A stretch of DNA of 64,000 nt from Phreatobacter sp. (lineage in GTDB: Bacteria > Pseudomonadota > Alphaproteobacteria > Rhizobiales > Phreatobacteraceae): assembly GCF_022843985.1 (NCBI RefSeq), contig NZ_JALHMP010000009.1, positions 62,001-126,000 on the forward strand, written 5' to 3'. Made by a program: the position numbers and the translations under genes. Shown one piece after another: positions 47,495 through 62,438 of this stretch (the first letter of the stretch is position 1; each line of letters opens with the position of its first letter). The notes beneath the pieces were generated by a model. The model searched no databases. It was not told the origin of the DNA and worked only from the letters and a program-made list of their open reading frames with translations.

Positions 47495-47561
47495 GCCCTG
47501 TCACGCTCCCGCGCGGTTCTGCCTGGCGCGGAACCTATGCGCCCGGGGGCAACAGGTGGCG

Positions 47562-48875
47562 TCAATGCTCCCGCATGGACCGCGCCAGGGTGTCCCGCAG
47601 CGGGCCGATGAGATAGGTCAGCATCGTCCGCTCCCCGGTGATGATGATCACATCGGCCGGCATGCCGGGCACGATTTTGGCGGCCAACTCGGCGGGGATG
47701 TCGCTGCGCTCGATCGTCACCTTGGTCTGGTAGAAGGTTTCCCGGGTGCGCGCGTCCTCGACGGCGTCCGCCGAGACGGTCACCACCCTGCCGAAGATCG
47801 GGTCGGCCTTGCGGCTCGAGAAGGCGGGAAAGCGGATCTCGGCGCGTTGGCCCGTGGCAATGCTCTGGATGTTCAGGGGCGAGACCCGGGCTGTGAGCGT
47901 CAGGCGCTGCATCGGCGGGATGATCTCGGCAAGCGTCGCACCGGGCGCGATGACGGCGCCCGGAGTCGTCACCTGGACGTTGAGGACGATGCCGGCGCGC
48001 GGAGCACGCACGTCGATGCGCGTCAGGACCGCCTCGGCGACCTCGAGCTTTTCGCGCGTGTCGGCGATCCTGGCACGGATGTCGGTCAGGGCCTGGGTCT
48101 GCTCCTCCTGGGCCCGCTGGCGGATCTGCTGGATCTGCAGACGCGATTCCGAGATGACCTGATCAAGCCTTGCCAGATCCCCTTCGAGGCCGCCTGCCTC
48201 GCCATCGAGACGGGAGGCATCGCGTTCCAGCGCGCTGAACCGGTTGCGGGGGAAGAAGCCCCGCTCCATGACGGGACGGATCCGGTCGATCTCGGCCGTC
48301 AGGCTCTGTCGCTGGGTCGCCAGCGCTTCGAGCCGACGCCTGCGGCCATCGATATCGCGGGTCGTCTGCTCGATCCGCGTCTCCAGGATGCCAATCTGGT
48401 TCTGCAAAGAGTTGCGCCGTTCGGAGAGCAGGCGCTGTTGCTCGGACATGGCCTGGGCGAGGTAGGGCTGGCCGGCCTTGGCGAGGAGCTGCGGCGGGAA
48501 TGCGATGGGGCCGGAGCCTTCCCGCTCGGCCAGAATGCGCGCCTCCTGGACGAAGACCGCATCGAGCTGGCGGCTGAGGAGGTCAACATTGGCCTTGGCG
48601 TTGGTGGTGTCGAGCCGGAACAGAACCTGGCCTTCCTCGACCTGATCTGCCGCCTTGACGAGGATCTCCCGGACGATGCCGCCTTCCAGATGCTGCACGG
48701 GTTTGCGGTCGCCCTCGACCGCGATGCGCCCCGGAGCTACCGCCGCGCTGTCGAGGGGGGCGATCGCCGCCCAGGCTCCAAAGCCTCCGAACACGAGGAG
48801 GATGGCGCCAAAGGCGAGCCTGGAATAGCGGCGGTGATCGCAGGAGGCTTCGCATTCAAGGGTCTTGCCGCTCAT
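47562..48875 (-). CDS. Type I secretion membrane-fusion protein, HlyD/PrtE family
   Basis: A 437-residue adaptor linking an inner-membrane ABC exporter to an outer-membrane channel. It has a short cytoplasmic N-terminus, one membrane helix (LAFGAILLVFGGFGAWAAIA), the biotinyl-lipoyl start PGRIAVEGDRKPVQHLEGGI, a long coiled-coil hairpin and the second lipoyl half (VRAPRAGIVLNVQVTTPGA). The ATG at 48875 fits the family; the longer reading adds unrelated residues. Its upstream region carries a 15-base-pair palindrome. The likely partner exporter gene is at 51604, and the candidate substrate gene lies between. No TolC gene lies within this cluster. Confidence 0.92.
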   Translation of the reverse strand: MSGKTLECEASCDHRRYSRLAFGAILLVFGGFGAWAAIAPLDSAAVAPGRIAVEGDRKPVQHLEGGIVREILVKAADQVEEGQVLFRLDTTNAKANVDLLSRQLDAVFVQEARILAEREGSGPIAFPPQLLAKAGQPYLAQAMSEQQRLLSERRNSLQNQIGILETRIEQTTRDIDGRRRRLEALATQRQSLTAEIDRIRPVMERGFFPRNRFSALERDASRLDGEAGGLEGDLARLDQVISESRLQIQQIRQRAQEEQTQALTDIRARIADTREKLEVAEAVLTRIDVRAPRAGIVLNVQVTTPGAVIAPGATLAEIIPPMQRLTLTARVSPLNIQSIATGQRAEIRFPAFSSRKADPIFGRVVTVSADAVEDARTRETFYQTKVTIERSDIPAELAAKIVPGMPADVIIITGERTMLTYLIGPLRDTLARSMREH

Positions 48876-48935
48876 CAGTCTGTCCTTCCCCGCGCTCAGT
48901 CGGATGTTGCCCTGCAGGCTTAGCGTCGAAGCAGA

Positions 48936-48969
48936 GAGACCGGCTGTTCCAGAGGGAACAGCCGGTCTC
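48936..48969. promoter_or_regulatory. Long palindrome with core GCTGTTCC-N4-GGAACAGC upstream of hlyD
   Basis: Two perfect 15-base arms around AGAG; the inner arms read GGCTGTTCC and GGAACAGCC. It lies between the repeat-protein gene (stop at 49028) and hlyD (start 48875), centred 77 bases before hlyD. As a transcript it would form a stable hairpin, so it may end the repeat-protein message; but its core is shared with two other intergenic sites in the cluster, which favours a protein-binding role. Both may be true. Confidence 0.6.
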
Positions 48970-49027
48970 ATTCAGGCGCCAGGAGGACGAGGCGCCGTCT
49001 TGCGCGTGTGGTCAGGCCGCGCCCAAA

Positions 49028-51376
49028 TCAGAAGAGGTTGAACGAGATCTTCGGGGCATCGTCGCCGAAGTCCTTGTCGAACCCACCGAAGGTGGCGGGC
49101 GGGGGGCTGTCCTGCACCGGTGCACCCTTGGTGAAGGAGGTGGCGGCCGGCTTGGCGGCGACTGCGAAATCGTCGAAGTCGTCGAAGGAGGGGCCCTTCG
49201 GCTGCTTGTCGAAGATCTCCTTCGGCAGCTCTTCCTTCAGCTCGAAGAGCGGCTTTTCGACCTCGGATCCCCTGGCCTTGCCGATATCGGCGATCTTGCT
49301 GCCGGCCTGATCGTTGCCGACCAGGATGAAGCGCGAGTCGCTGCTGTCCTGCGAGCCCTTGCCTGCGGCTTTGGTGGCCTCATCGACCGCTTCCTTGGCG
49401 TCGTCGAAGAACGAGCCGATGAAGGAATTGCCCTTCTCGCCCTTCTCGGCGACGAGCGCCTGCCCGCCCGAAGAGCGGCCGGTGCTGACGACCGACAGGC
49501 TGTCGTCGATCTTGGCGTTTTCGGCAAAGCCTTCGCGGAAGGCGTCGATGATCTCGGCGCCGGCCTTGACCGCCGTCTCGCCAGCCTTGCCGAGGCCACC
49601 GGCCAGGCCCGCTCCGATGTCCGCGGCAATGCCGAGGCCGTCCTCGAGGCCCTGCCGGGCGTCATCGACCACCTTCGCCGCATCATTCGCGGCGCTCCGG
49701 GCGCCATCGACAATGGCCTCGCCCGTCTTCTCAAGCACCGCCTTGCCTGTCTTCACCGCCGCCTCGCCGGTCTCGCCGACCTGATCGATGACCGTCTGGC
49801 CCAGCCGTGCGGCATCGCCCGCCTTGTCGGCGACGAAGTCGACGACATCCTTCGTGGCCGCTTCAGCGGATTCCGCCGCCTCGGTGACGAGCTCGCCGGT
49901 CTTGGCAAAACCCGCGCCGAGCTTGTCGCCGGCCGATTGCAGGGTGTCGCCGATGATGGCTCCGACGTCGCGTGCGGTGTCGACGACCTCGGCGGTGTTG
50001 TCCACCACGACCTCGACGGCGTTTCCGGCGGCGTTTCCGATGCCGGTTCCCACGGCTTCGATGATCTCGGCGCCGGTCTCGATGGCGGTGGCGGCCTGCC
50101 GGCCGATGCCCTCGAGCGTGTTGCGGGCCACGTCGCCTGCCGTTTCGGCCGAGTTCCTGCCGGCGGTGACGATGCCGTCGATCACGCTGGTCGCGACCTC
50201 GACTGCCGTGTCCGCCGCATTCCCGACCGCGGTCTCGACGCCGTCCTTGACGTCGTTGAGATTCTTGCCGGCCACATCGAGCAGGTTCTGGCCGGTCTCG
50301 ATCACACCCTCGACATAGGCGCCACCCACCTTGCCGGCCGTCTCGACGGCATTGACCAGGTTGTCGGCCACGCCCTCCGCGGTGTTCTTGGCAACCTCGC
50401 CGATCCCTTCGAGGATCCGGCCGCCGACCTTGGCGGCACCGTCGGCGACCTCGCCGGCCGCCTCACCCAAGCCTTCGGCCGCATCCTTGCCGGCCTCGAC
50501 GACCCGTCCGGCGAAACGGCCGGCATCGGATAGGGCAGTTTCACCAGCCTCACGAACACCTTCGACGACCTTGCCGGTCTCCTCGGCGGCGTCACGCAGG
50601 ACCTGGCCCGCGCCCTTGCCGAAATCGACCGCGGCGTCCCTGGCGCCGTCGATGACCTTGCCGGTCTCCTCGGCGACGTCACGCAGGACCTGGCCCGCGC
50701 CCTTGCCGAAATCGATCGCGGCGTCCCTGGCGCCGTCGACGGCCTTGCCGGTCTCCTCGGCGGCGTCACGCAGGACCTGGCCCGCGCCCTTGCCGAAATC
50801 GACTGCGGCGTCCTTGGCACCGTCGACGACCTTCCCGGCCTCGGTGGCGACATCCTGGGCTCCGTCCTGGATGGCCTTGCCGACCGTCTCGACGACCTTG
50901 CCCGCAGCCTGGCCGGCTTCGTTGAGGCCGTTCTGGATAGCCTCGGCGCCCTCTTTCACGCCATCGGCACCCCTGCCGACCAGTCGGCCGGTGCCGACGA
51001 TGCCGTTGCCGATCGCTTCGACCGCGCTCTTGCCAGCGGCCTCGAAGCCCTGGGCGGCGCCCTCGGCGGTCCGGGTGATCGTGCCGCCGGGATCGCGGAC
51101 GAAGGCGTTGACGCCCTCGGTGACCGCCTGGCCGCCCTGCTGAACGGCGGAAGTGACGTTTCCGATGACTTCGCCGACGGCGCGCGAGGCGTCACGGGCG
51201 GTGTTGGTGACGGCTTCGCCCGCATCCTCGGCAGCACCGGTGACGCCGTCATACACGGCTCCCGCCGTCTCGGCGACAGCCTCGCCGAAATCCTCGACCG
51301 CTTCCTTGCCGCTTTCGACAATACCACCGACTGCCTCGGCTGCGTCCTCGAAGAAACCAAACAATCCGTTGCTCAT
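49028..51376 (-). CDS. Low-complexity amphipathic repeat protein, candidate type I secretion substrate
   Basis: A 782-residue protein starting MSNGLFGFFEDAAEAVGG, made almost wholly of Ala, Gly, Val, Glu, Asp, Lys and Thr. I see no Cys, Trp or His and no Met after the start. Residues about 10-690 repeat short amphipathic helical units (GxAVExAGxxxxxA), resembling LEA or apolipoprotein-like sequences; residues 181-267 hold three near-identical 29-residue copies. There is no signal peptide and no RTX nonapeptide. The last 60 residues are acidic and aromatic (FDDFDDFAV) and end DDAPKISFNLF, like uncleaved type I secretion signals. It is flanked by the fusion protein and the ABC exporter genes. 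Function unknown; export is inferred. Confidence 0.75.
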   Translation of the reverse strand: MSNGLFGFFEDAAEAVGGIVESGKEAVEDFGEAVAETAGAVYDGVTGAAEDAGEAVTNTARDASRAVGEVIGNVTSAVQQGGQAVTEGVNAFVRDPGGTITRTAEGAAQGFEAAGKSAVEAIGNGIVGTGRLVGRGADGVKEGAEAIQNGLNEAGQAAGKVVETVGKAIQDGAQDVATEAGKVVDGAKDAAVDFGKGAGQVLRDAAEETGKAVDGARDAAIDFGKGAGQVLRDVAEETGKVIDGARDAAVDFGKGAGQVLRDAAEETGKVVEGVREAGETALSDAGRFAGRVVEAGKDAAEGLGEAAGEVADGAAKVGGRILEGIGEVAKNTAEGVADNLVNAVETAGKVGGAYVEGVIETGQNLLDVAGKNLNDVKDGVETAVGNAADTAVEVATSVIDGIVTAGRNSAETAGDVARNTLEGIGRQAATAIETGAEIIEAVGTGIGNAAGNAVEVVVDNTAEVVDTARDVGAIIGDTLQSAGDKLGAGFAKTGELVTEAAESAEAATKDVVDFVADKAGDAARLGQTVIDQVGETGEAAVKTGKAVLEKTGEAIVDGARSAANDAAKVVDDARQGLEDGLGIAADIGAGLAGGLGKAGETAVKAGAEIIDAFREGFAENAKIDDSLSVVSTGRSSGGQALVAEKGEKGNSFIGSFFDDAKEAVDEATKAAGKGSQDSSDSRFILVGNDQAGSKIADIGKARGSEVEKPLFELKEELPKEIFDKQPKGPSFDDFDDFAVAAKPAATSFTKGAPVQDSPPPATFGGFDKDFGDDAPKISFNLF
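50576..50836 (-). repeat. Three tandem 87-base (29-residue) repeats inside the repeat protein
   Basis: Three consecutive in-frame copies encode variants of GKxVDGAxDAA followed by DFGKGAGQVLRD and xAEET. The nucleotide copies are nearly identical, whereas the rest of the gene is only loosely repetitive, suggesting recent duplication and possible copy-number variation between strains. Confidence 0.85.
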
Positions 51377-51493
51377 GACCCGCTCCATCTGGGTGTTGAA
51401 GGCCGCTCCGGGCCTTCGGGGTTTCGATCCATCGCAGGGGCCGTTCGTCTCGGCGCCTCGATGTCCCAACCTTGGCCCCGGGCGGTGGCGGGC

Positions 51494-51513
51494 GCTGTTC
51501 CCGGCGGAACAGC
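51494..51513. promoter_or_regulatory. Palindrome GCTGTTCC-N4-GGAACAGC between repeat-protein and exporter genes
   Basis: A perfect 8-base inverted repeat with a CGGC spacer, in the divergent region between the repeat-protein gene (start 51376) and the exporter gene (start 51604). The core equals that of the palindrome upstream of hlyD and nearly equals the one upstream of fecR. The TGTTC-N6-GAACA layout is that of Crp/Fnr-family sites. Confidence 0.65.
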
Positions 51514-51559
51514 CTCAAATTTTTCGGCAGGACAGATTGATGGGGCGCGACAGGCAAGG

Positions 51560-51589
51560 TTGCGACGGCCAGATTGGCTCCGCTAGAAA
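51560..51589 (+). promoter_or_regulatory. Possible promoter of the exporter gene
   Basis: TTGCGA, an 18-base spacer and TAGAAA, 15-44 bases before the ATG of the exporter gene and downstream of the palindrome at 51494. If right, the palindrome would be centred roughly 90 bases upstream of the transcript start, a position used by CRP activators. Weak evidence. Confidence 0.3.
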
Positions 51590-51603
51590 GGGACTTGAGA
51601 CCG

Positions 51604-53346
51604 ATGGCACAGGCGATGGACGAGGCTCGGAGCCAGAAACCGATCGATCCCCTCAAGGTCGCCATCCGCGCCTGTCTGCCGGGGACGTTCGCCGCGGTCA
51701 TCATCAGCATGTTCATCAACGCGACCATGCTGGCGATGCCGATCTACTCGATGCAGATCTATGACCGCGTCCTTGCGAGCCGCAACGAGACGACGCTCCT
51801 CCTGCTGACGCTCATCGTCCTCATCTTCCTGGTGCTCTACGGCATCCTGGAATATGCCCGCTCGGGCGTGCTGGTGCGCTCGTCTGTCGCCTTCGAACGC
51901 GTCCTCCGCCGTCCTCTCTTCGATGCCATGATGCGCGCCGAACTCGATCCCGAGCGGCGCCAGGGGCAGCAGCTCATTCGCGATGCCGAGGCCATCCGCG
52001 ATTCCCTGGCCAGCGGCACGGTGGCGATCATCTGCGATCTGCCGTGGACGCCGCTCTTCGTCCTGCTCTGCTACTTCATGCATCCGGTGCTCGGCATGAT
52101 CGCGCTGGTCGGCGCTGTCGTCCTCTTCGCGCTGGCCGTCCTCACCGAGATCCTGACGAAGCGCGGCGTCGACCAGTCCTCCCGTCTGTCGAACGATGCC
52201 TCGACCTTCGCGGCCTCGGCGCTGCGCAACGGCGAGGTCGTCCGCGGGCTCGGCATGGGCGATACGGTGCTGGAGCGCTGGAGCGGCCAGCAAAGCGCGG
52301 CGGTGGCCGCCAATGTCGCCTCGGCCGAGCTGACCGCCGCGCTCGTCGCCATGTCGAAATTCGCCCGCATCGCGGTCCAGACCGGCGTCCTCGCCGCCGG
52401 GGCCTGGCTTGCCATCGAGAAGCAGATTTCGCCCGGGGCGATGATGGCCGCTTCGATCATCATCGGCCGCGCCCTGGCGCCGGTGGAGCAGATCGTCGGC
52501 CAGTGGAAGCGGATCGTCGGGTGCCGCAGCGCCTATCGCCGGCTTCGCCACCTGATGAACGAGTTTCCGCAGAAGGCGGCGCCGGTCAGCCTTCCCGTGC
52601 CGCAGGGCCAGATCGAGGTCGAGAATGTCGCCATCGTTCCTCCCGCTGCCGCGAAGCCTTCCGTGCGCGGGGTCTCCTTCAGTGTTCAGCCCGGCGAGAG
52701 CGTGGCGATCGTCGGCTCCTCGGGCAGCGGCAAGTCGAGCCTGGCGCGGGCCCTGGCCGGTGTCTGGGAACTGCGCGCCGGGGAAATCCGCATCGATGGC
52801 GCGGCCTTGAACCAGTGGGACCGCAACAAGCTCGGCAAGAGTGTCGGCTATCTGCCGCAGGACGTGGAGCTCTTCGCCGGGACGGTCGCCGACAACATCG
52901 CCCGTCTTGCCGATGTCGACAGCCGTGCGGTCGTCGCCGCCGCCAAGGCCGCCGGCGCCCATGACGTCATCCTGCGCCTGCCGCAGGGCTATGACACGCC
53001 GATCGGGGAGGGCGGCCTGGCGCTGTCCGGCGGCATGCGCCAGCGGGTCGGCCTTGCCCGCGCCCTCTACGGCGATCCGCGCCTCATCGTTCTCGACGAG
53101 CCCAATTCCAATCTCGACGAGGAGGGCGAGCGTGCCCTCGGTCAGGCCATTGCCGCGATGAAGGAAGCCGGCCGCACGGTGGTCGTCGTCACCCACCGCC
53201 CGCAGCTGCTCGCCTATGTCGACAAGGTGCTGGTGATGTCCTTCGGGACCGCACTCGCCTTCGGCGACCGGGACGATGTCATCGCCCGGATGCGCGGCAA
53301 CAAGGTTGCAGCTGTCCAGTCCCCACGTACGAGCTCTGCGGCCTGA
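51604..53346 (+). CDS. Type I secretion ABC exporter (PrtD/HlyB-like permease-ATPase)
   Basis: A 580-residue fused permease and ATPase. Six membrane helices occupy the first 300 residues (FAAVIISMFINATMLAMPIY marks the first of the PrtD type), then comes the nucleotide domain with Walker A GSSGSGKSS, signature LSGGMRQRVGLARAL and Walker B LIVLDEPNSNLD. It lacks an N-terminal C39 peptidase-like domain. The start at 51604 is MAQAMDEARSQKPID; an ATG ten codons upstream is possible. It is divergent from its candidate substrate gene and followed after 38 bases by the OmpA-like gene. Confidence 0.93.
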   Translation: MAQAMDEARSQKPIDPLKVAIRACLPGTFAAVIISMFINATMLAMPIYSMQIYDRVLASRNETTLLLLTLIVLIFLVLYGILEYARSGVLVRSSVAFERVLRRPLFDAMMRAELDPERRQGQQLIRDAEAIRDSLASGTVAIICDLPWTPLFVLLCYFMHPVLGMIALVGAVVLFALAVLTEILTKRGVDQSSRLSNDASTFAASALRNGEVVRGLGMGDTVLERWSGQQSAAVAANVASAELTAALVAMSKFARIAVQTGVLAAGAWLAIEKQISPGAMMAASIIIGRALAPVEQIVGQWKRIVGCRSAYRRLRHLMNEFPQKAAPVSLPVPQGQIEVENVAIVPPAAAKPSVRGVSFSVQPGESVAIVGSSGSGKSSLARALAGVWELRAGEIRIDGAALNQWDRNKLGKSVGYLPQDVELFAGTVADNIARLADVDSRAVVAAAKAAGAHDVILRLPQGYDTPIGEGGLALSGGMRQRVGLARALYGDPRLIVLDEPNSNLDEEGERALGQAIAAMKEAGRTVVVVTHRPQLLAYVDKVLVMSFGTALAFGDRDDVIARMRGNKVAAVQSPRTSSAA

Positions 53347-53384
53347 GAGCTTATGCGCCACCCATTCCCATGCGAGGATACGCC

Positions 53385-54647
53385 ATGTTGACCGTTATCA
53401 CCTCCTTCCCTTCCACCTGGCGCAGATGGCGCCAGGCAATCCCGGCCCTGGCCCGGTTCGCGGCCCTTGCCGCTCTCCTGTGTGCGAGCCTGATGGCCTT
53501 CAGCGGTGCAGGCGTCGCCCAGGGGCTCGGCCAGCCGCCGGCCCTGCCACGGCCTCCGCAGCTCGTTCCCCTGGATCGGGCCTTCCTGAATGCGGCAACC
53601 GCCCTCTTCAACACCGTCCCCGTCACCGCCGAGAAGACGATCATCGTCATCGATCCCCTGGTCGACGGGATCACGGGGATTCAGTCGGCGGCGACACGGG
53701 GCTTCGACCGGCGGATCGCGGCGCTGGTCGCCGAGCGCTACCAGCACATCGAGGTGCTGCCTTTCACGGTCGAGAACCTGGCCAAGGCCAAGTTCATCTT
53801 CATCGGCACGTTCAACACCATCAACAATGCGGGACAGCCGACCGGGCCCCGGGATGCGTTCTGGATCTGCTTCGCCCTCATCGACCAGGCGTCGAAAACC
53901 GTCGCCGCCCGATCGGTCGCCAGAGCCACCATCTCCGACGTCGACATTGCGCCGGCGCGCTTCTATGCGGATACCCCCGTCTGGGGGCTCGACGCGGCCA
54001 CCATCGCCTATATCGAGACCTGCCAGCGCTCCCGGCCCGGCGATCCCGTCAGCCCGGCCTATATGGCCCAGCTTCCCGCGGCCGCCCGGATCCGCGAGGC
54101 CACCGTCGCCTACGAGGCGGGCGATGCGCGCCGCGCGCTCGACCTCTACCGCGAGGCGAGGGCCATGCCGGAAGGCGACCAGTTGCGGGCCCTCAACGGT
54201 CTCTACCTGGCGCTGATGGCCATCGGTGAGAGGGACGAGGCGGCGAAGGCCTTCTCGCAGCTCGTCAGCAATGGGCTCAGCCTCGGCCGGCTGGGGGTGC
54301 TGTTTCTCTTCGAAGTGGGCACGACGAACTTCAACTCGCAGACGGCAGCCGCTGCGCATTACGCGAACTGGCTCAACGAGATCGCGACCCGCGCGGGCAG
54401 TGCGGAAGGCTGCCTCCAGGTCGTCGGCCATGCCAGCCGGACGGGCCTCGAGGCGTTCAACGAGCGGCTGTCGCGTGAGCGCGCGGAACGGATCATCGCC
54501 TTGCTGGCGGAGCGTGCTCCCGGTCTGGCCGGCCGCCTCAGGCCAGCGGGTGTCGGCTCACGCGAGGTCTTGGTCGGACTGCCGCGGGATGATAGCAGCA
54601 CGGATATCGATCGCCGTGTCGAGTTCAGGGCCGCCACCTGCGCATGA
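53385..54647 (+). CDS. Periplasmic protein with TPR-like segment and C-terminal OmpA domain
   Basis: About 420 residues with a signal peptide (LAALLCASLMAFSGAGVAQG). Residues 45-215 form an unassigned domain beginning LDRAFLNAATALFNTVPV and including FIFIGTFNTINNAG; next is a TPR-like pair of helices (AYEAGDARRALDLYREA). The C-terminus is a peptidoglycan-binding OmpA domain: LQVVGHASRTGLEAFNERLS, RAERIIALL and the DRRVEFRA end. It probably links the system to the cell wall. A GAGG ribosome-binding site favours 53385; an ATG five codons upstream exists. Its stop overlaps the next gene by four bases. Confidence 0.82.
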   Translation: MLTVITSFPSTWRRWRQAIPALARFAALAALLCASLMAFSGAGVAQGLGQPPALPRPPQLVPLDRAFLNAATALFNTVPVTAEKTIIVIDPLVDGITGIQSAATRGFDRRIAALVAERYQHIEVLPFTVENLAKAKFIFIGTFNTINNAGQPTGPRDAFWICFALIDQASKTVAARSVARATISDVDIAPARFYADTPVWGLDAATIAYIETCQRSRPGDPVSPAYMAQLPAAARIREATVAYEAGDARRALDLYREARAMPEGDQLRALNGLYLALMAIGERDEAAKAFSQLVSNGLSLGRLGVLFLFEVGTTNFNSQTAAAAHYANWLNEIATRAGSAEGCLQVVGHASRTGLEAFNERLSRERAERIIALLAERAPGLAGRLRPAGVGSREVLVGLPRDDSSTDIDRRVEFRAATCA

Positions 54648-57076
54648 GTTCAGTCAACCCTCCCACCCCGGCGGCAGACGATCGCCGTCCACTACCGCCG
54701 GGAACACGGGTCGGTGACGATTTTCTCATCCTCAAACACCGCGCCTCCGGATCCGCGGCGCTGAGCTACGAGGGATTGCGGCTTGCCGACCAGGCGAGCG
54801 TGATCTTGACCGAGTTCTTCCCTGCCGGTCTTGCGGTCAGGCTCGACGACGGCTCGGTTCAGCCGATCCGGGGCTGGGAGGGGGATGTCGATGCCGGGCT
54901 TCAGGCCTTCCTGGCGCGTGCCGCCCGCCTGCGGAGCCTGGCTGATCCTGCCATTGATGCGCCGCGACAGGAGCTGCAGGCCTTCGGGACGGTCTACCTC
55001 GCCTCGTCCGGAACGTCCGGTCCGCCCCTGGATGTCTGGGCCAACGACCTCCTGAGGCGGCCGAGCGCCGCCGACCTCGCCATGATCGGCCACCGTCTCG
55101 TCCATGGCCTCGCCGGGCTGCATCGCCTCGGGCTCGCCCATGGCGCCGTGTCGGCGCGCGAGGTTCATCTGAACGCGCCCTCCGACGTCGTGCTTGCAGG
55201 GGCGCTGCTCCAGGCTGCGGGCCCGGAGGCGCGGGCGGGCGATCTCGCCGCGGCGGCGGGTGTCCTCTACCGTCTGGTGACGGGGCTTGCCGTGCCGCCG
55301 CCGGAGCGGGACCGTCAGCTCGATGCCCGCTTCGCCGCGGTTTCCGTTGCCGCGGGCGACTATCCCGACGCGCTCCTCGAAGCCCTGGATGCCGTGCTGG
55401 AAATCGGAACCGGGGCCATTCCTGTCGATCCCGACCTCTGGACGCGGGACTTTCTGGCGGTGACGGCGGGACTTGCGGGCGTTGCCCTCGTTCCGCCGCC
55501 GCGCGAGACCGCGGCTGCGGCCCAAGCCGCGCCGGCCGCCCCGGTTCCATCGGGTGAGCAGCAGCCGGCTGAGCCTGTTTTGCCCCCGGTCCAGAAGCCC
55601 CGGTCGGACCCGCCGAAGGCCGCGCCCGCCGGCGATCGGCCGCGACGCGCCGTCATGCCCATGGTCGTCCTGACCGGACTGGTGCTTGCCGGCCTTGCCG
55701 GCTGGCTCTCGCTGCAGCTCCTGCGCCAGTCTCCGTCGGCGCCATCTCCCGTCGCGAGCGCTTCCGCCCCCCGCGCCGCCGGTGAGGCACCTGCTTCGCC
55801 CGCCGAGCGCCTCGTGCCTGTTTCGCCGCCCAGGAATGAGTCGCAGTCTCAGCCTGCGGCCGTTCCGGCCCCGCCGCCGGTCGCCGGGACGCCTGCACCC
55901 CCGGCGATTGCGCCCGCTCCGCACTCCGAGCCGGCCCGTGAGACGCTGGGGCCCGCGGCATCGCCGGGAGCGCCGGATCTCGCCGTGACGCCCGTTCCAA
56001 CCCCTGTCCTCCCGCCGGACCGGGATCAGGTTGGTGCGCCGCCGCCGGCCGGTGCGGAGGATCGCGCGCCGGCGATCGCCTTCGCGCCACCGGCGACGAG
56101 TTCGGCCCTGCCGACACCCGCCGAGATCCTGAGCCGCGAGGTCGAGACTGCGACGAGCGCTCAGGCGCTTGTCGACCTCATGGCCCGTGGCGCCGATCGC
56201 GACGCCGCCGAATCCCGGATCGCGGCCCTCGGCTATGTGCCGATCCAGGCCGGCGCGACCCGGATCTTCCGCAAGCCCGGCGATGGCGAGGGCTTCCGCG
56301 ACTGCGACACCTGCATGGACCTGGTGGTGGTGCCGGCCGGCCGGGTCACCATGCAGATCTCGATCGCCAATGCGAGCCGCGAGATCGGCATCGATCTGCC
56401 GCGCCCCTTCGCGGTCGCCCGCCATGAGACGACCCGTGGCGATTTCGCCGCCTTCGTCAGGGAGAGCGGCAGGGCGATCGCACCGGGATGCCATGCGCGA
56501 TCCCCGTCCTGGCGGCTCGATCCGGTCCTGTCCTGGCAATCGCCCGGCTTCGACCAGGGGGATGACCATCCGGTCGTCTGCGTCAGCTTCGAGGATGCGA
56601 CGGCCTATGCCGCCTGGCTGTCGCAGAAGACGGGACAGCGCTATCGGCTGCCGACCGATCCCGAGTGGCACTATCTTGCCGCCGCCGAGCGGTGGCTGAG
56701 GCGCGACAGTCCGCAAATGTGCATGATCGGTAACGGAGCGGACCAGTCTGCCCGCGCCGCCTTCCCCGACTGGGAGGCGACCGGCTGCACCGACGGCGCT
56801 GTCTACACCGCGCCCGTCGGCCAGTTTGCCGCAGGGCTCTGGGGTCTGCACGATCTCAACGGCAATGTCTGGGAATGGGTCGCGACCTGCGCACCGCAGC
56901 CGCGGGCCGATGCCGAGTTTCCGCCGCGCGATTGCGAAGCCCAGGCCCCGCGCCTGCTGCGCGGCGGGTCCTGGGCCGATCCGCCGAGCCTGCGCATGCT
57001 CGATGCCCGCATCATCAGCGCGCCCGCCATTCGCGATCAGGTGGCCGGCTTCCGGCTGATCCGGGAAATCGACTGA
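54644..57076 (+). CDS. Pseudokinase-transmembrane-FGE/SUMF fusion protein
   Basis: An 810-residue protein in three parts. Residues 20-275 look like a Ser/Thr kinase (EFFPAGLAVR in the Lys strand region; GLHRLGLAHGAVSAREVHL in the catalytic-loop position), but the HRD/HGD aspartate is Ala and no DFG is seen, so it should be a pseudokinase. A membrane helix follows near 335-360 (MVVLTGLVLAGLAGWLSLQL), then a long Pro/Ala linker, then a periplasmic FGE/SUMF domain from about 558 (LVVVPAGRV, RHETTRGDFAAFV, LHDLNGNVWEWV, LLRGGSWADPP). The two catalytic Cys of true FGE are missing after GGSW. Coupled to the OmpA-like gene by ATGA. A sensor or scaffold role is inferred. The 215 bases after it show no feature. 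Confidence 0.8.
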   Translation: MSSVNPPTPAADDRRPLPPGTRVGDDFLILKHRASGSAALSYEGLRLADQASVILTEFFPAGLAVRLDDGSVQPIRGWEGDVDAGLQAFLARAARLRSLADPAIDAPRQELQAFGTVYLASSGTSGPPLDVWANDLLRRPSAADLAMIGHRLVHGLAGLHRLGLAHGAVSAREVHLNAPSDVVLAGALLQAAGPEARAGDLAAAAGVLYRLVTGLAVPPPERDRQLDARFAAVSVAAGDYPDALLEALDAVLEIGTGAIPVDPDLWTRDFLAVTAGLAGVALVPPPRETAAAAQAAPAAPVPSGEQQPAEPVLPPVQKPRSDPPKAAPAGDRPRRAVMPMVVLTGLVLAGLAGWLSLQLLRQSPSAPSPVASASAPRAAGEAPASPAERLVPVSPPRNESQSQPAAVPAPPPVAGTPAPPAIAPAPHSEPARETLGPAASPGAPDLAVTPVPTPVLPPDRDQVGAPPPAGAEDRAPAIAFAPPATSSALPTPAEILSREVETATSAQALVDLMARGADRDAAESRIAALGYVPIQAGATRIFRKPGDGEGFRDCDTCMDLVVVPAGRVTMQISIANASREIGIDLPRPFAVARHETTRGDFAAFVRESGRAIAPGCHARSPSWRLDPVLSWQSPGFDQGDDHPVVCVSFEDATAYAAWLSQKTGQRYRLPTDPEWHYLAAAERWLRRDSPQMCMIGNGADQSARAAFPDWEATGCTDGAVYTAPVGQFAAGLWGLHDLNGNVWEWVATCAPQPRADAEFPPRDCEAQAPRLLRGGSWADPPSLRMLDARIISAPAIRDQVAGFRLIREID

Positions 57077-57291
57077 TCGTCCGGCCCGCATGATCTGCCT
57101 CCTGGCCGGCGGCAAGAATTTGCTTGAAGCTGGAACCGTCATGCTGATCATGCCGGGATCGACGGTGGCCGCCGACGTCGCGCAGGCGCGGAGCCATCGT
57201 CGGAGCGGAAGAATCAGTCGCCCGGTGGTGCAGGTCGCGTGAGCTTGCGAGCAAGGCCTGGCGGCGCAAAGACGGGCCCCCAACGGGATCG

Positions 57292-57990
57292 ATGATGAGC
57301 GAGAGCAGCCCAGCCCTTGAGATCCTGTCGCGCCATCCCTGGTTCGGAAAGGCAGGCGATCAGCTCGCATCGCTCGCCGGACGTGCCCGGGCAAAGGCCT
57401 GGACGGGCGGCCAGACCATTTTCCAGCGGCGGGAGAACGCGGATTCGCTGGTCATCCTCGTCTCCGGCCTCGTCCGCCTGTCGCTGATCACCGAGGAAGG
57501 ACGCGAGGTCACCGTCCGCATGGCGGCGGCCGGCGAAGTCTTCGGCGAGCTCGGTATCCTCGATGGCGAGCCCCGCTCGACCGATGCCACGGCGCTCACC
57601 AAGGTGGCCGGCTTCACGCTGGCGCGCGAGGATGTCTGGGGACTGATCGAGGCATCCGGCCCGTTCCGGAAGGCCGTCATCGGCGGGCTCTGCTCGCGGC
57701 TCCGGGAGACCACCGCCCAGCTCGAATCGATCGCCCTGATGAGCATCGAGACGCGGGTGGCCCGGCTTTTCCACCACCTCGCCGTCGATCGCCGCAAGGA
57801 GGGTGGCAGGATCGAGGTCAGCCTGCCCTATTCCCAGGGGGAACTGGCGTCCCTGGTCGGTGCGACGCGGCCGAAGGTCAACCAGGCGATCTCCCAGCTG
57901 CTCGATCGCGGCGCCCTGGTGCGCACCAAGGCCGGCTATTCCTGCCACCTCGAGAAGCTGGCGGAACTTGCCCAGTTGGACGAGATTTGA
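57292..57990 (+). CDS. CRP-family cyclic-nucleotide-responsive regulator
   Basis: A 232-residue Crp/Fnr protein. The nucleotide pocket is well kept: FGELGILDGEPRSTDATAL has the Gly-Glu-Leu and Arg95-Ser96 that hold cAMP phosphate and ribose in CRP. It has no cysteine cluster. The helix-turn-helix is SQGELASLVGATRPKVNQAI; compared with E. coli CRP, the DNA-reading Arg180 is kept but Glu181 is Pro and Arg185 is Gln, so it should not read TGTGA. The shared TGTTC-N6-GAACA palindromes in this cluster are candidate sites. Translation is coupled to a nucleotide cyclase gene downstream. Confidence 0.85.
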   Translation: MMSESSPALEILSRHPWFGKAGDQLASLAGRARAKAWTGGQTIFQRRENADSLVILVSGLVRLSLITEEGREVTVRMAAAGEVFGELGILDGEPRSTDATALTKVAGFTLAREDVWGLIEASGPFRKAVIGGLCSRLRETTAQLESIALMSIETRVARLFHHLAVDRRKEGGRIEVSLPYSQGELASLVGATRPKVNQAISQLLDRGALVRTKAGYSCHLEKLAELAQLDEI

Positions 57991-59864
57991 CGGGCTTCCT
58001 CTCAGGCGCCCGCCGCCGGCGGCTGGCCGCTCTCACGGCGGGCATGCTCGCCGCCATCCTCGGCGTGTTCGTCGCATTCGTCATCGAGACCAGCCCGGCC
58101 GGCCGCCTGCGGGAGAGCGGCTTCGCGTTGATGGGGTGGTTCGCACCGCGCAGCGCACCGGCCGGCATGCCTGTCATGGTCGTCGATATCGACCGGGCCT
58201 CGCTCGGCCTGATGGGGCCCTGGCCCTGGTCACGCGACAGGCTCGCCACGCTGGTCGACAGGATCGCCGCCGCCGCGCCGCAGGCCCTCGGGGTCGACAT
58301 CGTCCTCGCCGACCGCCGGGATGATGCGGGCGCGCCTCTCCTCGCCGCGGCCATCGGCAAGGTGCCGACGGTCCTTGGCGCCGTGCTCGATCCGGAACAG
58401 GTGACGACGGCGACGGTTCCGCCGCTCGCCATCGTGCTCGTGGGCGATGGCGGTGACGTCCAGGTGCCTGAATCCCCCGGCGTGATCGTTCCCCCCGAGC
58501 CCTTCCTCTCGGCCGCCCGGGGCATCGGCATCGTCTCGTTCCTCGCCGGCGACGAGATGGCCGACCAGCTGGTCGTCACCAGTCCGCTCGTGGTCAGCGC
58601 CCAGGGTCTGCCTCTGGCCGGCATCGGACTGGCGCTGGTCCAGGCCCGGTTCGATGCATCGAGCGTGATCATCGATGTCCCCGGCGGACGCCTCAGGGTG
58701 GGAGACGCCTCCGTCCCGCTGACGCGCGACCTGTCGCTGCGCCTCCATCATGGCCGGGCCGGCGACCGCGTCGCCCGCACGCTCTCCGCGGCGCGTCTGC
58801 TGCGCGGCGAGGACGCTGCCGCCCTGAAGGACCGCATCGTGCTGCTCGGCGCCAGCGCCCCGGAGATCGGCGGGCTGCGCGCCACCCATGCCGATCCCTT
58901 CATGCCGTCGGTCCAGATTCTCGCCGACAGCGTGGAACAGATCCTTGCCGGACAGGCGCCGGTCAGGCCGCCGCATGGCCGGTCCGCCGAGATCGCCGCG
59001 GCCCTGGTCATTGCCCTCGGCGGCATGGTGGCTGTGCTGGTCGTGTCCCCCTTCATCGCCGCCGGCGTGTCGCTGGTCCTCGCGGCGGGCTGGGTCGCGC
59101 TCTGTCTCGGCCTGTTCGGCCTCGGCGGATGGCTGCTCGACCCCCTCGGCCCGCCGCTCATCGGCCTCGTCCCCGTCCAGGTGACGGCTCTCATCCTGTT
59201 CTCGGCCACGCTGCGCGAGCGGCGGGCGATCGAGCGGCGCTTCGCCCAGCATCTGCCGGCCGAGGTCGTGGCGAAGATCGCCGACGACCCCTCGCGCCTC
59301 AAGATCGACGGCGAGGGGCGCGAGATCACCGCGCTCTTCACCGATATCGAGGGCTTCACCGCCATGACCGAGCGCGCATCGCCCAAGGAGCTCATCGCCC
59401 TGCTCGACGCCTATGTGGAATTGACCGCCGGGATCATCGTTGCCCATGGCGGCATGGTCGACAAGGTCGTCGGCGATGCTGTCCATGCCTTCTTCAACGC
59501 GCCGATGGACTGCGACGATCACCCGCGGAAGGCGCTCGCCTGCGCGCGGCAGATGCTGGCCGCCACCGAACGGTTGAGGGCCTCCCCGCTGGGCGTCAAG
59601 CTGGCGCTCGGGCGCACGCGCATCGGCATCGAGACGGGCCCCGCCATCCTCGGCGATATCGGCGGTGGCCGGAAGCTCGACTATACGGCCCACGGCCCCG
59701 CCATCAATGCGGCCGCCAAGCTGGAGGCGGCCAACAAGACCTTCGGTACGTCGATCCTGATCGGGCCGGAGGCCGCGGCCCGGCTTCAGGCGGAGGATCT
59801 GCGGCCGGTGGGTGCCTGGCAGGCGAGCCCTGCCTCCGCGCCGCGGACGATCTTCACGGTCTGA
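57987..59864 (+). CDS. CHASE2-domain class III adenylate/guanylate cyclase
   Basis: A 625-residue membrane cyclase. An N-terminal membrane helix (about 14-33) leads to an extracytoplasmic CHASE2 sensor (60-325), then three membrane helices (335-405), then the class III catalytic domain. Metal-binding Asp453 (LFTDIEGFTAM) and Asp497 (VDKVVGDAVHAFF) are present, and Lys493 is in the adenine-selecting place. The transition-state Arg of the usual N-x3-R motif is Lys578 here (INAAAKLE), so activity may be low. It starts at a TTG that overlaps the stop of the CRP gene (TTGA). It probably makes the ligand of that regulator. Confidence 0.88.
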   Translation: MTGFLSGARRRRLAALTAGMLAAILGVFVAFVIETSPAGRLRESGFALMGWFAPRSAPAGMPVMVVDIDRASLGLMGPWPWSRDRLATLVDRIAAAAPQALGVDIVLADRRDDAGAPLLAAAIGKVPTVLGAVLDPEQVTTATVPPLAIVLVGDGGDVQVPESPGVIVPPEPFLSAARGIGIVSFLAGDEMADQLVVTSPLVVSAQGLPLAGIGLALVQARFDASSVIIDVPGGRLRVGDASVPLTRDLSLRLHHGRAGDRVARTLSAARLLRGEDAAALKDRIVLLGASAPEIGGLRATHADPFMPSVQILADSVEQILAGQAPVRPPHGRSAEIAAALVIALGGMVAVLVVSPFIAAGVSLVLAAGWVALCLGLFGLGGWLLDPLGPPLIGLVPVQVTALILFSATLRERRAIERRFAQHLPAEVVAKIADDPSRLKIDGEGREITALFTDIEGFTAMTERASPKELIALLDAYVELTAGIIVAHGGMVDKVVGDAVHAFFNAPMDCDDHPRKALACARQMLAATERLRASPLGVKLALGRTRIGIETGPAILGDIGGGRKLDYTAHGPAINAAAKLEAANKTFGTSILIGPEAAARLQAEDLRPVGAWQASPASAPRTIFTV

Positions 59865-59875
59865 CGCGCCGTCAG
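59861..59875. terminator. Small inverted repeat spanning two convergent stop codons
   Basis: CTGACG-CGC-CGTCAG: the left arm holds the TGA of the cyclase gene and the right arm the stop of fecR on the other strand. The 6-base-pair stem with a three-base loop is a weak bidirectional terminator candidate. Confidence 0.35.
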
Positions 59876-60477
59876 CGCAGCAAGGCCCGGAAACTGGCGG
59901 CGCGTTCGCGCGACCAGGGCGTCGGCGGCGCCGGCCTCTGGCCGCGCCGCGCCACGGTCGTGCCTTCGCCGGGCCCGAGCGTGACGGTCACGCCCGCCGC
60001 CCGCACATCCACCCGCCCCTGGTCGACCAGAACGGAAAAGCCGCGGGCCGGCTCTCTTCCGACGACGAAACGGGTGCCTCGGACCGCCACCAGCGCATAG
60101 GGGCTGCGTACCGTCAGCCCCCGCGGCAGGCGGCCCTGCACATCCACCCCGACGGCCCCGGAACCGATGGTGATCGTGCCGCCCTGGTTGGCGATGAAAC
60201 GGTCGATGCGGACGCGCGCCTGGCCGCCCATGCGCAGGGTCGTGCGCTCGCCCAGGGTCATGGCGACGCGGCCCTCCGGCTCGGTCCGGACGAGATCATT
60301 GAGCATGACGCCGGTCTCGCGCACCAGCGAGCGGGTCGTGCCGGCATTGTCCGCGAAGGCCGGGCCCTGGCCCTCGGTGACGCGGCCGACCTCGGCCGCC
60401 ATGGCGGCAGGAAGGCCGAGGCTGCCGACAGCCCAAAGCCCCAGTCCGAGAAACCCCAGCAAACGACCCGACGCCAT
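59872..60477 (-). CDS. FecR-domain periplasmic protein
   Basis: A 201-residue protein with a signal peptide (LLGFLGLGLWAVGSLGLPAA, cut near AMA) and one FecR domain: VRTEPEGRVAMTLGERTTLR, VQGRLPRGLTVRSPYALVAV and RGTRFVVGRE. It lacks the cytoplasmic anti-sigma helix bundle of classical FecR, so it is a secreted, stand-alone FecR domain such as those found with CHASE2 cyclases and large-surface-protein loci. It converges on the cyclase gene. A palindrome of the cluster type lies 62-83 bases upstream of its start, linking it to the secretion genes. Confidence 0.85.
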   Translation of the reverse strand: MASGRLLGFLGLGLWAVGSLGLPAAMAAEVGRVTEGQGPAFADNAGTTRSLVRETGVMLNDLVRTEPEGRVAMTLGERTTLRMGGQARVRIDRFIANQGGTITIGSGAVGVDVQGRLPRGLTVRSPYALVAVRGTRFVVGREPARGFSVLVDQGRVDVRAAGVTVTLGPGEGTTVARRGQRPAPPTPWSRERAASFRALLR

Positions 60478-60538
60478 CGTGAATGCCTCGCCTCATTGGT
60501 TCGCGACTGCAGCGACCATGATGCTAGCACAGCGTGCT

Positions 60539-60560
60539 GCCAGTTCCGTGCGGAACAGGC
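60539..60560. promoter_or_regulatory. Palindrome GCCAGTTCC-N4-GGAACAGGC upstream of fecR
   Basis: A 9-base inverted repeat with one mismatch and the same four-base spacing as the two other cluster palindromes, centred 72 bases before the fecR start. It is the third copy of the GTTCC-N4-GGAAC core in front of a cluster gene. Confidence 0.55.
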
Positions 60561-60638
60561 ATGCTCCCGTCGATGCCGGTCGGACCGGGCGGATCCGCGC
60601 GCCCTGACCTTGGCCGACCAGCGGATGATCGCCGTGGG

Positions 60639-61004
60639 TCATCCGACCTGTCGGGGCCAGCGGGCCGCGTTCTGCGCCAGCCCGGTCTCGAACAGGAAGT
60701 ACTGGCCGGGGAACCGCAGGGTCTGGGTCGCCGTGCCGGTGATGGCGTGGACCTCGCCGAAGGGCCGGTCAACCGCCTCCCAGACATTCGCCTTGGAACC
60801 GTTGGTCAGCATGATCGGCCGGTCGAGGTGATCAGCGTGGACATGCAGCAGCTGCGGCGAGGCTGTGTCGACATTCGCGACGATCGCCAGCGGCATGTCG
60901 TCGAACCAGACGTATTCCCTGACCGTCGCGCCGTTCGCGCCATTGGCCTCGATCAGCACCTTGCCGGAGAGGTCATCGGCGAAGTGGGTGGTGCCGGCGG
61001 GAGA
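60639..61004 (-). pseudogene. Relic of an RHS/YD-repeat protein
   Basis: The minus strand reads GTTHFADDLSGKVLIEANGA, REYVWFDDMPLAIVANVD, LHVHADHLDRPIMLTNGSKA and LRFPGQYFLFETGL, the consensus of the C-terminal core of RHS toxins (THFxYDxxG, EYIWLDDMPLAVV, HADHL, LRFPGQYxDxETGL). It then loses the expected YNxxRYYDPxxGRY and stops at 60639; on the other side it is closed by an in-frame TGA near 61005. Only about 120 residues of what are usually 1,000+ residue proteins remain, so this is a broken fragment lying beside the element's attachment site. Confidence 0.75.
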
Positions 61005-61156: not shown

Positions 61157-61175
61157 TGGTAGCTAATTGGTAGCT
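61157..61175 (+). repeat. TGGTAGCT direct repeat in front of the integrase gene
   Basis: TGGTAGCT at 61157-61164 and 61168-61175, 11 bases apart (one helical turn), between the tRNA remnant and the integrase start. This is the place where arm-type integrase or excisionase sites occur; function is a guess. Confidence 0.35.
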
Positions 61176-61199
61176 GCCCCGGACCGAAGGGCGAAGGCA

Positions 61200-62438
61200 A
61201 TGCCGACCGTGAAGTTGACGAAATCCGCTGTCGACGATCTGCCGACCGGTGGCGTTCTTTGGGATCAAGCCGTGCGAGGCTTCGGCGTCAGGCGGCAATC
61301 GCGCGATCCGGTCTTCGTGTTGAAGGCCCGCGTGAACGGCCGTCAGCGCTTCCTCACTATCGGTCGGCACGGTTCGCCTTGGACCGTGGACACAGCCCGG
61401 AACGAGGCCAAGCGTCTGCTTGGCGAAATTGCTGGCGGCCGTGATCCGGCTGAACGACGCGCTGACGAAAAGAGCGCCCCGAGCGTTGGTCAGCTTGCCG
61501 ACGATTTTTTGAAGGAGCACGCCACCGTCAAGCGGAAGGCCTCGACGGCGGACTACTACAGGATGATTATCGAGACGCACATCAAGCCAGCGTTCGGCCA
61601 CCTGAAGGCCAACGCACTGACTTCGGCTGAAGTCGAGAAATGGCACGCGGGCGCGAAGCGGAAGCCGACCGGCAACCGTGTGGTAGCGGTCCTGTCGAGC
61701 ATCTATTCATGGGCTGCGAAGACGAAGCGTCTCCCCGATGGGCCAAACCCGGCGCGCCCGGTCGAGCGGTATCGAGAGGAAGCCCGCGAGCGCTACCTGA
61801 CCTCTGACGAACTCGCGCGCTTGGGCGACGCCATCCGTGAAGCCGAGACGGTCGGCATCCCATGGAATGTGCGCGAGACGACGAAGGCGAAGGCCACAGC
61901 CAAGCATCTGCCCAGGGAGGGCAATCAGCGGACGAAGATCGCGCCTGCCGCCGCCGCCGCGCTGCGGCTCTTGATCCTGACCGGCGCACGGCTTCGCGAA
62001 ATCCTGCATCTCGAATGGCGACATGTCGATCTGGAGCGCGGCATTCTGTTCCTGCCGGACTCTAAGACCGGCCGAAAGGCGCTGGTGTTGAACGGGGCGG
62101 CCGTCCAGCTTCTGACCGACCTTCCGCGCTTTGGCCGCTATGTGATCGCGGGCGCGAGCGTCGGGACCGAAGACGAGCAACCGCGATCCGACCTGAAGCG
62201 GCCATGGGCGCTTGTGGCGACGCGGGCGAAGCTGGAGAACGTCCGCCTTCACGATCTGCGGCACACCTTCGCGTCGGTCGCGGCGGCTTCGAACATCGGG
62301 CTTCCTGTCATTGGCAAGCTGCTTGGCCATTCGCAGACGAGCACGACCGAACGCTATGCACATCTCGCGGTCGACCCGGTGCGGGCCGCAACCGATCTTG
62401 TCGGGCAGAAGCTCGCGGCTGCGATTGGCGGACGCTGA
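61200..62438 (+). CDS. int: Tyrosine site-specific integrase, P4-like
   Basis: A 412-residue recombinase. The N-terminal arm-binding DUF4102 domain begins MPTVKLTKSAVDDLPTGG and includes FLTIGRHGSPWTVDTARNEA; a SAM-like core-binding domain follows (about 105-190). The catalytic domain has Arg in LTGARLREILHLEW, HDLRHTFAS, LLGHSQ and the nucleophile in TTERYAHL, so all key residues are present. It lies 138 bases from the tRNA-Arg remnant, its probable attachment site. The start is set by the domain and by GAAGG upstream. The next gene overlaps it by one base. Confidence 0.95.
   Translation: MPTVKLTKSAVDDLPTGGVLWDQAVRGFGVRRQSRDPVFVLKARVNGRQRFLTIGRHGSPWTVDTARNEAKRLLGEIAGGRDPAERRADEKSAPSVGQLADDFLKEHATVKRKASTADYYRMIIETHIKPAFGHLKANALTSAEVEKWHAGAKRKPTGNRVVAVLSSIYSWAAKTKRLPDGPNPARPVERYREEARERYLTSDELARLGDAIREAETVGIPWNVRETTKAKATAKHLPREGNQRTKIAPAAAAALRLLILTGARLREILHLEWRHVDLERGILFLPDSKTGRKALVLNGAAVQLLTDLPRFGRYVIAGASVGTEDEQPRSDLKRPWALVATRAKLENVRLHDLRHTFASVAAASNIGLPVIGKLLGHSQTSTTERYAHLAVDPVRAATDLVGQKLAAAIGGR

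Follow-up and report, generated by a model that had tools for sequence, protein, structure and literature searches.

An eight-gene block in Phreatobacter joins a predicted Clr-type cyclic-nucleotide circuit to a type I exporter and to an OmpA-like protein of a wider family

Among described systems, the CyaD1-Clr-SMc02177/SMc02178 cascade of S. meliloti is similar to the locus reported here in having a CHASE2 adenylate cyclase, a Clr-type CRP, a FecR-domain target and the same box consensus (PMC5498481, PMC10127613). The Clr box of S. meliloti is given as HGTYHCNNNNGRWACA (PMC5498481, PMC10127613). However, the targets named in these accounts are succinoglycan, motility and infection control, and the cascade as they describe it contains no type I exporter, OmpA or pseudokinase-FGE protein (PMC5498481, PMC10127613). 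Type I secretion systems of the PrtD/PrtE type share with our locus an exporter and an adaptor with a candidate substrate gene adjoining. In contrast to these systems, the candidate substrate in our locus lacks RTX repeats and has some resemblance to apolipoprotein/phasin helices, the block lacks a TolC gene, and cAMP-Clr control is expected. PvdO and GldK/PorK belong by sequence to the same FGE fold family as one protein of our locus, which lacks C-terminal cysteines and is likely periplasmic; unlike them, this protein has its FGE domain fused to a transmembrane pseudokinase, and its gene overlaps an OmpA-like gene. The iSTAND/VMAP ternary conflict systems, as presented in PMC7159879, also use kinase (often inactive), caspase, TIR and OmpA domains as interchangeable parts. 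Unlike those, the systems considered here consist of two genes, which encode a tail-bearing partner and a separate OmpA-like protein.

The window is the whole 64-kb stretch of Phreatobacter DNA that was analysed. In the initial annotation, eight gene families were placed in one uninterrupted block of it. ORF calling and family profile matches gave all eight ORFs with the families as stated, and the intergenic gaps are too small for a further sizeable gene. Thus, the observation of the eight-gene block is confirmed. The features are as follows.

47562..48875, minus strand, HlyD-family membrane-fusion protein, 437 aa (TIGR01843, 355 bits, cut-off 209)
48936..48969, no strand, perfect hairpin with a 15-bp stem and a 4-base loop, between the repeat-protein gene and hlyD
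49028..51376, minus strand, amphipathic repeat protein, 782 aa, predicted type I secretion substrate (helical moment, composition, conserved C-terminus)
51496..51511, no strand, predicted Clr-type box TGTTCC-CGGC-GGAACA, in the gap from which the repeat-protein and ABC genes diverge
51574..53346, plus strand, PrtD-type ABC exporter, 590 aa (TIGR01842, 692 bits, cut-off 510)
53370..54647, plus strand, OmpA-like, putatively periplasmic hub protein (possibly LpoB/TolB-like N-domain, then a helical middle and an OmpA peptidoglycan-binding domain)
54644..57076, plus strand, pseudokinase, transmembrane segment (337-355) and FGE-fold domain in one protein; 4-bp overlap with the OmpA gene
57292..57990, plus strand, Clr-like CRP-family regulator, 232 aa (family match, closest to Clr)
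57987..59864, plus strand, CHASE2-class III nucleotide cyclase, 625 aa (family match)
59872..60477, minus strand, FecR-domain protein, 201 aa (family match)
60542..60557, no strand, predicted Clr-type box with one mismatch, upstream of fecR; also in loci L002 and L003

The repeat-protein gene and hlyD run leftward, ABC, OmpA and pseudokinase-FGE run rightward in this order, CRP and cyclase also run rightward, and fecR runs leftward. Because both strands are used, the eight genes are not one operon, and a single co-directional operon was ruled out. The several coupled starts reported earlier amount to two 4-bp overlaps (OmpA/pseudokinase-FGE and CRP/cyclase); the pseudokinase-FGE and CRP genes are separated by a 215-bp gap. 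The hlyD start at 48875 fits the homolog lengths of 437-441 aa. No Rfam families and no tRNA genes were found within the 64-kb window. A tyrosine-recombinase integrase gene is encoded at window 61167-62438, just right of the block.

The cyclase, CRP and FecR genes form a triad that is widespread. A cyclase match at E<=1e-40 was found in 12 of 13 genomes; CRP adjoins the best match in all 12 and FecR in 11, the twelfth locus (L131) ending at a contig edge. In the order, 135 of 297 genomes have a cyclase match at this threshold. Of the best 19 new cyclase loci, three of which (L151, L152 and L159) come from genomes with the block, 18 have CRP and 13 have FecR within the stretch covered. The triad occurs widely without the rest of the block and is of a known kind, described in S. 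meliloti as CyaD1/Clr/SMc02177. The best PDB match of the CRP is S. meliloti Clr (7pza, E 1.3e-44; next best 2.1e-22), and the alignment has the T140/T141 pair and the RPKVN stretch in common. In the account of 7PZA, which is Clr, T140/T141 contact the cyclic nucleotide (PMC10127613). The CRP is the only match at E<=1e-12 within its own genome. By relatedness and the Thr pair, the product of the window CRP gene is predicted to be a Clr-type cAMP/cGMP receptor. In one genus, very long repetitive open frames lie downstream of CRP-cyclase (L175:1-7104 and L177:1-4099).

Sequence comparison places the 13-kb block at a different position in a sister genome. Between the window and L003, homology runs from window 47566, at the hlyD end, to 60567, slightly past the fecR box. 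The congener G160 matches L003's genome in its positions; here the block lies on contig C12 and the LysR site lies on contig C69. On C69 this site is empty: the homologs of window 47497 and 60673 are only 76 bp apart. In our locus numbering the empty site is L211:6024-6101, against window 47497-60673, and the same sister genome has the block on another contig. Among named records, the Phreatobacter MAGs L002 and L003 are nearest, with OmpA identities of 95 and 92% (best 80 of 166 loci). Across the 12 genomes of the genus, including that of the window, the OmpA gene is present at >=92% identity in three and at 43% in one (G246); in G246 a kinase-tail version adjoins the OmpA gene.

The initial annotation had proposed a search for co-occurrence of the eight families. 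Our OmpA sample was the best 80 of 166 confirmed loci in genome contigs, several of which end at contig edges. In this sample the full set was found in three other genomes (L003, L006 and L011). In L006 and L011 the order is changed, with FecR-CRP-cyclase on the far side of hlyD and all genes still adjacent. Bosea AAP35 (G308) has seven of the eight genes and a repeat-protein-like fragment, split over two contigs: L013 carries ABC-OmpA-pseudokinase, and L189 carries hlyD, FecR, CRP and cyclase. The fragment is a 424-aa open frame at the L189 contig edge, which by eye resembles the repeat-protein end and terminates in NQNLFG; it gave no BLAST match at 1e-5. Because the set recurs in L003, L006, L011 and, split, in Bosea AAP35, the eight-gene association appears to exceed chance.

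The exporter does not occur in every such locus. L004 has the exporter genes with OmpA and has the FecR-CRP-cyclase triad on another contig. L008, L009, L010 and L012 have FecR-CRP-cyclase-OmpA-FGE without the exporter. The ABC exporter is present at >=79% identity in 7 of the 13 genomes. It adjoins OmpA in six of these; in G297, the seventh, the exporter gene is interrupted by a contig break, and the gene end adjoins OmpA. The remaining 6 of the 13 genomes have exporter matches of <=42% identity or none at E<=1e-60. Presence of the exporter elsewhere in the six genomes without it beside OmpA was considered and rejected, since no match exceeded 42% identity (E<=1e-60). On gene content, therefore, the exporter is optional to a FecR-CRP-cyclase-OmpA-FGE core.

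These distributions bear on the idea that the exporter, OmpA-FGE and the cAMP triad are three unrelated modules, brought together in a mobile block by chance or by hitch-hiking, that do not work together. OmpA-FGE does occur without the exporter, and the triad occurs without both. Nevertheless, the modules are reordered yet adjacent in L006 and L011, none of 13 genomes showed the exporter variant apart from OmpA, and boxes of the type of the triad CRP stand before the other modules. We consider such a chance assembly quite improbable. The parts are ordinary and the cAMP triad is known; the combination is conserved and relocating.

The divergent gap between the repeat-protein and ABC genes contains the palindrome GCTGTTCC-N4-GGAACAGC, which is kept with small changes in L003, L004, L006 and L011. 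This box at 51496 also stands before ABC in L013, and shows 0-1 mismatch in the five loci. Both it and the box at 60542 match the published Clr consensus. Because the arms of the 51496 box are constant, its centre is variable and pairing reaches outward only 0-3 bp, it is read as a site for protein binding and not as an RNA stem. In the exporter-less loci L005, L008, L009, L010 and L012, the box stands before OmpA. When -2600 to +400 relative to the start of the OmpA ORF was searched at <=1 mismatch, 10 of 12 close relatives had a box close to the exporter/OmpA unit, versus 1 of 68 distant loci (best 80 of 166). The close relatives form one clade in the tree, and the 10 of 12 are therefore not ten independent events. 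The two misses are L002, which ends at a contig edge, and L007, which has two mismatches; the lone distant locus with a box, L073, also has cyclase and CRP. The one-mismatch box lies 65 bp before fecR, is kept in L002 and L003, and is confined to Phreatobacter-like loci among the loci compared.

The 64-kb window contains 6 matches at <=2 mismatches versus 1.02 expected, and none of 100 shuffles reached 6. The six are the exporter box, the fecR box, the hairpin, and three two-mismatch sites elsewhere, one of them inside the cyclase gene. Genome-wide there is no box excess (15 sites at <=1 mismatch versus 21 for the reversed control). Five genome sites are exact: one before the exporter, one equal to the hairpin, two in near-identical repeats and one elsewhere. 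The two near-identical stretches (L192 and L193, exact box around position 1501) are perhaps a repeated element. A further exact box lies at L003:101-116, in the left flank of the sister block just beyond the hlyD end. No box at <=1 mismatch was found in 12 of 16 OmpA-less cyclase loci, nor in L189, the AAP35 triad contig. L172, whose genome has no OmpA match, contains an RTX gene, ABC, HlyD and CHASE2 cyclase in one row (L172:8043-15050), with Clr-like boxes in the RTX-ABC and ABC-HlyD gaps and with FecR and CRP nearby. L172 would thus be an independent case of an exporter beside a cAMP-Clr circuit.

The hairpin at 48936-48969 contains TGTTCC-N4-GGAACA at 48945-48960. Because this sequence forms the centre of the 15-bp stem, 48945-48960 was dropped as a third Clr box. 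Folding of a 66-base stretch gave -33 kcal/mol, and the stem has 13 bp in L003. An RNA hairpin is more likely here than a Clr box. Hairpins of this sort between substrate and exporter genes let the substrate outnumber the exporter. The earlier proposal of cyclic-nucleotide control by the CRP agrees with the Clr-type CRP and with the predicted Clr boxes before the exporter and fecR; as a prediction from these sequences, cAMP control of the block is well supported. Our literature search found nothing on type I secretion with Clr.

The ABC exporter and the HlyD adaptor both score above the NCBIfam cut-offs of type I subfamilies (TIGR01842 and TIGR01843). Family profiles detected no TolC among the eight block genes, and the only match above the TIGR01844 cut-off lies on another contig of the genome (G000:C6). 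Thus, contrary to the initial annotation, the block is not self-contained. A TolC-like gene below the type I cut-off lies at window 30392-31582 (G000:C9:92392-93582), 16 kb to the left of the block. Cys is absent from the repeat protein, which has a net charge of -65, and its description as amphipathic was upheld: for residues 1-640 the helical moment is 20.7 sd above shuffles (z). In L004, L006 and L011 BLAST identity drops to 33-38%, and the C-terminal SFNLF is identical in all five repeat proteins compared, four of which have diverged. PF00353 (RTX nonapeptide repeats) did not match it. Phasin_2 gave 40.5 bits over the whole protein with no single stretch passing, and Apolipoprotein was below cut-off. 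The conserved C-terminus speaks for export of the repeat protein and the lack of RTX repeats against it; the protein would reach the surface via the PrtD-type exporter and HlyD.

The OmpA-like protein has a Pfam OmpA match below cut-off, and its structure model has the OmpA C-terminal fold. The N-domain has no Pfam match and, folded alone, gave a modest match to LpoB (LpoB/TolB-N/CsgG fold group). The partner protein belongs to the FGE family as annotated earlier (PF03781, 140 bits, cut-off 23). Formylglycine-generating enzyme has an active-site cysteine pair near the C-terminus. The final 45 residues contain no Cys in the window FGE protein or in nine relatives with an aligned C-terminus, and formylglycine activity is therefore unlikely. 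Hanks-type kinases have the beta3 Lys, the HRD Asp and the DFG Asp. In the window kinase domain, K is changed to T, HRD to HGA and DFG to LAG; the Lys, the HRD Asp and DFG are lost in the window, L003, L006, L011 and L013. The kinase-FGE protein of L073 retains K, HLD and DFG. An active kinase and an active FGE were each rejected on motif loss; judged by their motifs, both domains of the window protein look inactive.

OmpA and FGE could instead serve as a structural platform on which the exported repeat protein is anchored or folded at the surface, the pseudokinase being a mere tether through which no signal passes. The FGE-fold relatives matched, GldK/PorK (a ring lipoprotein) and PvdO, are consistent with this, and L008, L009 and L012 have the FGE protein without the kinase part, which suggests that FGE and not the kinase is the kept partner. 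However, OmpA-FGE and the triad persist in exporter-less Bosea-type genomes, which argues that anchoring is unlikely to be the sole role. We regard the structural explanation as unlikely.

What the initial annotation overlooked is a wider family, with other partners, that has the OmpA gene as its hub. In 39 of the 68 distant loci (best 80 of 166), OmpA is preceded by a gene for a kinase, TIR or caspase. These upstream TIR, Ser/Thr kinase and caspase proteins have a common 29-residue C-terminal tail with two cysteines. Examples in L016-L081 are L029:8946-9842, L042:7689-9791 and L019:8217-9827. In a genome-wide search the tails adjoin an OmpA gene in 15 of 16 cases. No tail was found at E<=0.01 in the window's genome or in the genomes of L003, L006, L011 and L013. 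Near its CRP and cyclase genes, L073 encodes a small membrane protein that bears the tail (L073:12421-12906). L073 looks intermediate between the two OmpA types. Our literature search, which took in PMC7159879 and PMC8195603, found no description of the tail or of OmpA-TIR/kinase/caspase pairs. From gene neighbourhoods, the OmpA gene thus appears to be the hub, and the receptor family behind it is apparently unrecognised.

The partners themselves (TIR, caspase and Hanks kinases) suggest another possibility: the OmpA family may be a conflict system for defence or self-killing, in which the OmpA-like receptor would detect damage to the envelope and set free TIR, caspase or kinase effectors, with the window locus as a domesticated, regulated branch. 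On the tree, at least six changes of partner label are required, and OmpA-type effector domains are used in one published conflict system, as presented in PMC7159879. Among the proteins tested, two TIR and two kinase proteins match PADLOC models and one caspase does so weakly. However, the kinase and TIR model matches are generic to the domain, and no PADLOC defence model matches the OmpA or pseudokinase-FGE proteins. We consider a conflict role improbable.

The earlier interpretation as a whole is partly supported. On balance, we think it somewhat more likely than not that the eight-gene block is a cAMP-switched unit driving surface export. An envelope cue would cause the CHASE2 cyclase to raise cAMP. 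The Clr-like CRP with cAMP would then bind the predicted TGTTCC-N4-GGAACA sites before the exporter and fecR. The PrtD-type exporter, together with HlyD, would then probably deliver the amphipathic repeat protein to the cell surface via a TolC encoded elsewhere. The OmpA-like protein may hold peptidoglycan by its C-terminal domain and pair with the FGE domain in the periplasm, and the membrane-spanning pseudokinase may relay the state of the OmpA-FGE complex to the cytoplasm by a route that needs no phosphorylation. An OmpA-like protein of this kind would do so in distant relatives with a tail-bearing kinase, TIR or caspase in place of the pseudokinase-FGE protein.

More tentatively, and with somewhat less than even confidence, we propose a new trans-envelope signalling class. 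In this class, an LpoB/TolB-like OmpA receptor bound to peptidoglycan would sense the envelope state and pass it either to interchangeable partners bearing the conserved two-Cys tail in the periplasm (Ser/Thr kinases, TIR NADases and caspases) or, in the window's branch, to a cAMP-Clr-controlled pseudokinase-FGE protein coupled to export of an apolipoprotein-like coat. The cAMP-switched unit would put a type I exporter under a dedicated Clr circuit through a short, easily testable DNA box. The locus also points to an apparently undescribed periplasmic receptor family, whose partners, TIR, caspase and kinase domains among them, are linked to it by a 29-residue tail. This tail would offer a direct handle on how bacterial TIRs, caspases and transmembrane kinases get signals from outside the cytoplasm.
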